This document shows, one piece after another, positions 14,383 to 15,989 of a stretch of 64,000 nucleotides of DNA. The stretch's first letter is position 1. Each line of letters starts with the position of its first letter. The position numbers were made by a program, and so were the translations under genes. Source of the stretch: Verrucomicrobiota bacterium (GTDB lineage: Bacteria; Verrucomicrobiota; Verrucomicrobiia; Verrucomicrobiales; DEV007); NCBI GenBank assembly GCA_024277195.1, contig JAJRVS010000001.1, positions 1-64,000 on the forward strand. The letters run 5' to 3'. The notes under the pieces were generated by a model, which saw nothing but the letters and a program-made list of their open reading frames with translations, was not told the origin of the DNA and searched no databases.

Positions 14383-14540
14383 TGTTTTTGAAAAGAAGAG
14401 AGCATTAGGGCTTTCATTTCACGTCACAAGCAGTGAGATGGAGGCGTCATCACATCATAATATTCCAGGTAGGGCGGGAAGGGGGACAAGTTTCCGTCAG
14501 TAAAAGGCAGATTGCGGGCAGTTGTAAAGGTTGACTCAAA

Positions 14541-15989
14541 GTGCGGATGATTTTAATCTCGCCCATGATTGAGTTTGATAACGCCACACCTGATAACGGT
14601 AGTCGTGAGCATCGCGTCACGACGTCTTTCTTAACCCGCCGTTCCTTTGGCTATTACGCGTTTGCCGGCGTGTCCTATCTTTCCGCAGGGCGGGTCTTTG
14701 CCCGGAATGATGGGGCAACGCAAATATCGCGCAAGGACCAAAAGGGAAGTCGCGATAGCACCATGGCGTTGTTGCGAGAAGGCTATCAGTTTATTCCAAA
14801 TCGCTGTAAATCCTTAAAGTCAGAAGTTTTTCAAGCTAAGATTTTATCCAAAGAGGTGATGTGCCTTAGTGGGCACAATGCGGCGAAATTATTTTATAAC
14901 AACGATCTTTTTGAGCGCAAGAACGCGGCTCCAGAACGGCTGCAGAAATCCTTAACCGGTAAAGGCGGGGTTCAATCCCTGGATGATGCCGCGCATAGAA
15001 ACCGCAAGGCAATGTTCTTGTCATTGATGTCACCAGGTAAGCTTGGTAAGTTTGTTAAAAATCTGAATGACGAGCAAAATAGGGCGGGTTTGCTATGGGC
15101 AGAAGAGAAGGAAGTCACCTTGTTTGATGAGGCTCAGGAAATTTATTTTAGAGCTGCCTGTACTTGGGCGGGCGTGCCTTTGAAAGATTCCGAAGCAAGG
15201 GAGCGCTCTAAAGATATGGGAAAAATGGTCGATGGCCTAGGGTCATTAGGTTATAGGAATTATCGCGGTAGGTTTGCCAGGAAACGTTCAGAAGCTTGGA
15301 TGGTGGAAATAATCAATCAAGTAAGGGGTGAGAAACTGGCCGCTCCGAAAGGCACAGCATTACACACTATGGCTTGGCATAAGGATCAGGATGGCCAACT
15401 TCTCAATACGGATACCGTGGCGGTAGAGTTGTTGAACATTGTTCGCCCGATTGCGGCGATTGCCACATACATTTCCTTCATGGCATTGGCGCTGCATAGT
15501 TACCCGCAATATGGCAAATCACTTCGTGGAGCTAGTGACGGAGACTACCAGGCTTTTGTCCAGGAGGTGAGACGGTTTTACCCGTTCACGCCATTTGTTC
15601 TCGCAAAAGTGCGTAAGGATTTCACCTGGCGGGGTTACGGTTTTCCCAAAGGGCGCACGGTAATGCTAAGCGCGTATGGTGTTGATCATGATCCGAAATT
15701 ATGGCATAAACCTGAACAGTTCAATCCTGGTCGATTTAAAAGCTGGGGAGGAGATAGGTTTGATTTCATCCCTCATGGTGGCGGGGATTACCTCAAGGGG
15801 CATAGGTGCGCTGGGGAGCAATTAACCATTCAGGCCATGAAAGCAACGCTTAGGTTTCTGGTGGCTGGTATTAGTTATGATGTGCCGTCTCAGGATTTGA
15901 GTTTTTCTCTATCAAGAATACCAGCTTTGCCCAAAAGCGGTTTTGTCATGGCGAATGTTAAGTTGCGCAAAAACGGAGCTAACAGTTGA
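14541..15989 (+). CDS. CYP152-family cytochrome P450 (fatty-acid peroxygenase type) with Tat-like leader
   Basis: 482 residues from a GTG at 14541; ATGs at 14547 and 14565 are alternatives. The heme ligand is Cys423 in HGGGDYLKGHRCAGE, and the I-helix carries Arg302-Pro303 (NIVRPIAAIA) instead of the usual acid-alcohol pair. This is the signature of CYP152 H2O2-dependent fatty-acid hydroxylases/decarboxylases, where the Arg binds the substrate carboxylate. Both residues are offset by exactly 60 from the recalled P450BSbeta positions (Arg242, Cys363). The extra N-terminus contains TRRSF, a hydrophobic segment and a VFA cleavage-like site near residue 54, i.e. a twin-arginine signal. No redox partner gene is nearby, as expected for a peroxygenase. 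Confidence 0.88.
   Translation: MRMILISPMIEFDNATPDNGSREHRVTTSFLTRRSFGYYAFAGVSYLSAGRVFARNDGATQISRKDQKGSRDSTMALLREGYQFIPNRCKSLKSEVFQAKILSKEVMCLSGHNAAKLFYNNDLFERKNAAPERLQKSLTGKGGVQSLDDAAHRNRKAMFLSLMSPGKLGKFVKNLNDEQNRAGLLWAEEKEVTLFDEAQEIYFRAACTWAGVPLKDSEARERSKDMGKMVDGLGSLGYRNYRGRFARKRSEAWMVEIINQVRGEKLAAPKGTALHTMAWHKDQDGQLLNTDTVAVELLNIVRPIAAIATYISFMALALHSYPQYGKSLRGASDGDYQAFVQEVRRFYPFTPFVLAKVRKDFTWRGYGFPKGRTVMLSAYGVDHDPKLWHKPEQFNPGRFKSWGGDRFDFIPHGGGDYLKGHRCAGEQLTIQAMKATLRFLVAGISYDVPSQDLSFSLSRIPALPKSGFVMANVKLRKNGANS

Follow-up and report, generated by a model that had tools for sequence, protein, structure and literature searches.

A CYP152 peroxygenase with a conserved Tat-type leader as a candidate periplasmic cytochrome P450 in Verrucomicrobiota

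Because most cytochromes P450 need redox partners fed by NAD(P)H, these enzymes are normally tied to the cytoplasm or to membranes facing it. The CYP152 family is likewise thought to work inside the cell. The fungal unspecific peroxygenases are heme-thiolate peroxygenases that do work outside the cytoplasm, but they have an unrelated fold and use eukaryotic secretion, so that their analogy with the P450 described here is one of function only. The bacterial DyP-type enzymes DtpA and EfeB are, like the proposed enzyme, H2O2-using heme proteins sent outside the cytoplasm (PMC4736821, PMC3577903), and DtpA, a heme peroxidase, is a shown Tat substrate (PMC4736821); however, their fold is again unrelated, and they are neither heme-thiolate enzymes nor fatty-acid peroxygenases. 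CYP152 enzymes use H2O2 and need no redox partner (PMC5818669), so that the usual tie of P450s to cytoplasmic NAD(P)H falls away. Relocation out of the cytoplasm is thus conceivable for a peroxygenase P450, and the gene described here looks like a natural case. A search of the open-access literature found no bacterial P450 that is natively periplasmic or secreted. Both the CYP152 family and Tat export were already known; what is new here is a CYP152 carrying a conserved Tat leader.

The gene lies in a 64,000-nucleotide stretch of verrucomicrobial DNA, referred to below as the window. Its reading frame (14541-15989, + strand) is open throughout and encodes, in its longest form, 482 amino acids counted from the GTG at 14541. 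It is matched by the Pfam p450 model (E 2.6e-24) and by the NCBIfam CYP152 CypC model NF053744 (569 bits, E 3.6e-171); since this score falls just below the equivalog cut-off of 600 bits, we claim membership in the CYP152 family and not CypC orthology. The best-matching structures are CYP152K6 (6fyj, 448 bits) and P450BSbeta/CypC (CYP152A1; 1izo, 441 bits). Query residues 70 to 475 align without gaps on residues 10 to 415 of the 1izo chain, placing the peroxygenase domain at 14751-15986 and bearing out an earlier sequence-only reading, which had given a shift of 60 for the key residues: the offset is exactly 60. R302, P303, C423, and Q145 thereby align with R242, P243, C363, and Q85 of P450BSbeta. 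The Arg302-Pro303 pair (15444-15449, + strand), which binds the substrate carboxylate and replaces the acid-Thr pair of the I-helix, is invariant across 18 aligned sequences, and this replacement is a described CYP152 feature (PMC5818669). The heme thiolate ligand, Cys423 (15807-15809, + strand), sits within GHRCAGE. Family and key residues, both named in the same reading, can thus be read directly from the alignments to P450BSbeta and the homologues. Judged by these matches, the frame is an intact CYP152 P450 peroxygenase, for which H2O2-driven fatty-acid oxidation is predicted. A single-sequence structure prediction reached a mean pLDDT of 33 and was kept out of all readings.

The window P450 shares with both P450BSbeta and CYP152K6 the whole gapless domain and the Arg-Pro, Gln85, and Cys equivalents, and it shares family and carboxylate-binding Arg with the decarboxylase OleT (CYP152L1). 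OleT, however, has His85, while the window P450 has Gln at this position, as in the hydroxylases. Two pocket positions differ from P450BSbeta in both members of the genus known to carry the gene, with Thr replacing Phe79 and Thr replacing Gly290. Position 79 is variable among homologues (F, L, Q, or T), and Thr is unusual there, not unique. In P450BSbeta, the F79L substitution moves the product spectrum toward alpha-hydroxylation, and Leu is also the residue of SPalpha at this position (PMC5377825). By analogy, the window P450 is probably alpha-selective, and Gln at position 85 together with the smaller Thr for Phe79 would make alpha-hydroxylation likelier than decarboxylation.

Unlike the solved chains of P450BSbeta and CYP152K6, which have no N-terminal leader, the window P450 carries one in frame ahead of its domain: FLTRRSFGYYAFAGVSYLSAGRVFA. 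The TRRSF motif, the hydrophobic stretch, and the VFA of this extra N terminus, as noted earlier from the sequence alone, are all present at residues 32 to 54. The putative Tat-type signal peptide spans residues 29 to 55 (14625-14705, + strand; SFLTRRSFGYYAFAGVSYLSAGRVFA, followed by R). Its twin-arginine motif TRRSF (residues 32 to 36, 14634-14648, + strand), contained in FLTRRSF, conforms to the S/T-R-R-x-F Tat pattern; next come a moderately hydrophobic stretch free of charged residues and VFA at residues 52 to 54 (14694-14702, + strand), a putative signal peptidase I site, with cleavage after residue 54, that was recognized by inspection and not by a predictor. A hydrophobic residue at +4, usually Leu, is a preference of the Tat motif rather than an absolute requirement. 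The window leader has Gly at this position, while the Tat leaders of its own genome have L, F, I, M, or A.

A second genome of the same genus (G001) encodes an orthologue with 64 to 65% identity, and the alignment extends through the leader. All seven residues of FLTRRSF are identical, with synonymous changes in three codons, whereas identity over residues 29 to 55 is 14/27 and over the nonconserved linker (residues 56 to 70, 14706-14750, + strand) 2/15. At +4, the orthologue has Val; the counterpart of VFA is AFG, and by eye both VFA-R and AFG-Q are compatible with the -3/-1 rule. Over residues 29 to 55 we obtained a dN of 0.31 and a dS of 1.38, while the flanks evolve faster (dN of 1.13 in the n-region, residues 4 to 28, and 0.97 in the linker); as the stretches are short and dS is near saturation, these values are to be read as a contrast between segments and not as exact rates. 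This contrast, drawn from the window gene and its single known close orthologue, shows that the putative signal is translated and under purifying selection; no such selection is seen in the n-region and the linker.

Upstream of both genes lies a conserved block of 47 nucleotides (14521-14567, + strand), identical at 39/47 positions, compared to 26 for the best of 20 shuffles. It contains TTGACT and TTTAAT at a noncanonical spacing and may be a promoter or control region. Its 22-nucleotide core, used to seek a regulon, occurs at a single site genome-wide, and an Rfam search for an RNA element upstream of the P450 gave no match. Because the GTG at 14541 and the first ATG at 14547 both fall inside this block, the ATG at 14565, 24 residues ahead of the twin arginine, is the more likely start. 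If the block is a promoter, the two earlier codons would be unused, and the ATG at 14565 would lie at or near the transcript start. The choice of start leaves the leader unaffected, since every NTG codon 5' of the motif retains the twin arginine, and the reading of the leader is therefore independent of the promoter. Past the motif, NTG codons are limited to a GTG at residue 44 and then ATG or TTG codons from residue 75, the latter too late, as they would cut off the beginning of the CYP152 domain. A leaderless cytosolic form is thus not available.

The machinery for such a leader is present in the host genome, which encodes TatC on contig 121 (a 444-codon frame) and TatA/E on contig 154. In the TatC frame (L012), a long insert separates the two segments matched by Pfam TatC, and the C-terminal tail is charged. 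DUF1501 proteins are classic Tat clients, and we counted 68 DUF1501 matches in the window's own genome (5.5 Mb), a heavy load of a single Tat-exported family. The N termini that were read among them directly show Tat leaders, 44 of which were used to train a position model. In this model, the P450 leader scored +1.5 and the orthologue +7.8, while 106 background RR sites, taken from long open frames in the window, elsewhere on its contig, and around the orthologue, had a mean of -29.7 (sd 10.9). True leaders scored between -14 and +42 when left out, only 2/44 falling below the P450 leader, and 0.5% of shuffles reached its score. The mean of the hydrophobic region (0.68 for the P450 and 0.83 for the orthologue) lies within the range of the 44 leaders (0.36 to 1.48). 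The Pfam and NCBIfam Tat-signal models gave no match to the leader alone in scans that were run without a known Tat leader as control, and such searches drop short weak matches. On these scores, the P450 leader appears to be a weak but real-looking Tat leader, its weak point being the Gly at +4. The twin-arginine leader proposed earlier is thus borne out by the conservation of FLTRRSF and by a host with TatA, TatC, and many Tat clients. A single background RR site outscored the P450 leader; it belongs to a FAD-dependent oxidoreductase of the window (PF12831, 28513-29952, + strand) with a Tat-like leader of its own, MGSKFKRRAFLGSAISGAAG.

From these data we infer export, cleavage, location, substrate, and regiochemistry, and consider it likely that the gene encodes a Tat-exported, H2O2-driven periplasmic fatty-acid hydroxylase. 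The peroxygenase would fold and bind heme in the cytoplasm, and the folded, heme-loaded P450 would be exported by the TatA-TatC translocon, with cleavage of the leader near VFA-R. The mature P450 would then act outside the cytoplasmic membrane, in the periplasm, using H2O2 as oxidant without a redox partner and hydroxylating free fatty acids bound via Arg302. If Tat recognized the leader but the leader stayed uncleaved, the P450 would instead be anchored in the inner membrane, facing the periplasm. Such an anchor would be in line with a cleavage site placed by eye, with Arg at positions 51 and 55 of the c-region, and with an orthologue ending in AFG-Q and not in AxA. Both copies nevertheless have a small residue at -1 and V or A at -3, and the linker after the site varies freely, as for a cleaved signal, which makes retention of the leader unlikely.

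Export itself would be mistaken if the leader were an N-terminal extension that has decayed or arose by chance, with the P450 cytosolic as other CYP152s are. We judge this improbable, given that conservation within the N terminus is highest around RR, that purifying selection acts on the leader and not on its flanks, and that the gene offers no start codon for a normal cytosolic form, even though all examined CYP152s outside the genus are leaderless and the window leader scores near the weak end. Finally, a positive charge precedes the hydrophobic stretch, as would also suit a Sec signal or simple membrane anchoring. Sec transports proteins unfolded and without heme, and it would carry the P450 in that state. 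Moreover, the stretch is only mildly hydrophobic, with two His in the orthologue, like the Tat leaders of this genome, and RR and S-F are identical in both copies; a Sec signal or plain anchor is very improbable.

If the preferred reading, Tat export followed by cleavage, is true, the extracytoplasmic lipids of this P450 and its source of H2O2 become testable, and the natural Tat-P450 fusion could be used for periplasmic or secreted biocatalysis. Its physiological role is not read from gene context, as the neighbors are not conserved: apart from the P450, the window and the 20 kb around the orthologue share no genes, and the AlgX-like, DUF945, and other neighbors were accordingly dropped as functional partners. 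The roles put forward in the earlier reading (lipid damage repair, H2O2 disposal, and secreted signals made from fatty acids) are neither favored nor contradicted by the present results.

The leader-bearing form is known from two species of one genus in an uncultured lineage. It was found in none of the other genomes among the 75 of the family that were searched, nor in the sets drawn from the order, class, and phylum (387, 384, and 388 genomes, partly overlapping), in which CYP152 is rare, nor in viral contigs. A scan of genome contigs with a few short query patterns recovered the same orthologue and says little about other phyla. Among 111 plasmid records with a CYP152 match, the 15 that were read, from Bacillota, alpha- and gammaproteobacteria, a cyanobacterium, an actinomycete, and a planctomycete, all lacked the leader. 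The comparison of homologues suggested earlier as a check on the twin arginine thus divided by distance: these 15 and another verrucomicrobial homologue (G505), with 2 to 18 residues before the position of D72, begin at the P450 domain, and only the close orthologue keeps FLTRRSF. The leader therefore looks like a lineage-specific gain. The tree groups the two genus members in a single clade (100/100), which is nearest by path to Bacillota enzymes, a placement with weak support around it. These data fit an originally cytosolic CYP152 to which a Tat signal was added later. On a broader proposal, which we regard as evenly balanced, a lineage of uncultured Verrucomicrobiota in this way made a peroxygenase of the extracytoplasmic space out of a cytosolic P450. 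The enzyme would then work on H2O2 and lipids in the periplasm or outside the cell, as a bacterial functional counterpart of the secreted fungal peroxygenases, and would be the first P450 known to be exported natively.

A further homologue of the same order (G037, L010/L004) is split between frames, by gene decay or an assembly error, and says nothing about the leader, having no recognizable N-terminal part. The plasmid CYP152 genes (L016, L077, L078, and L083; also L019, L079, and L081) often lie within metal-resistance islands. In several alphaproteobacteria and Paenibacillus they adjoin lspA and a cation transporter, in a planctomycete plasmid cadA/czcD, and peroxiredoxin or MAPEG genes lie near some of them. 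One possible reading is that, under metal exposure, ordinary CYP152s have a role in peroxide or lipid stress.
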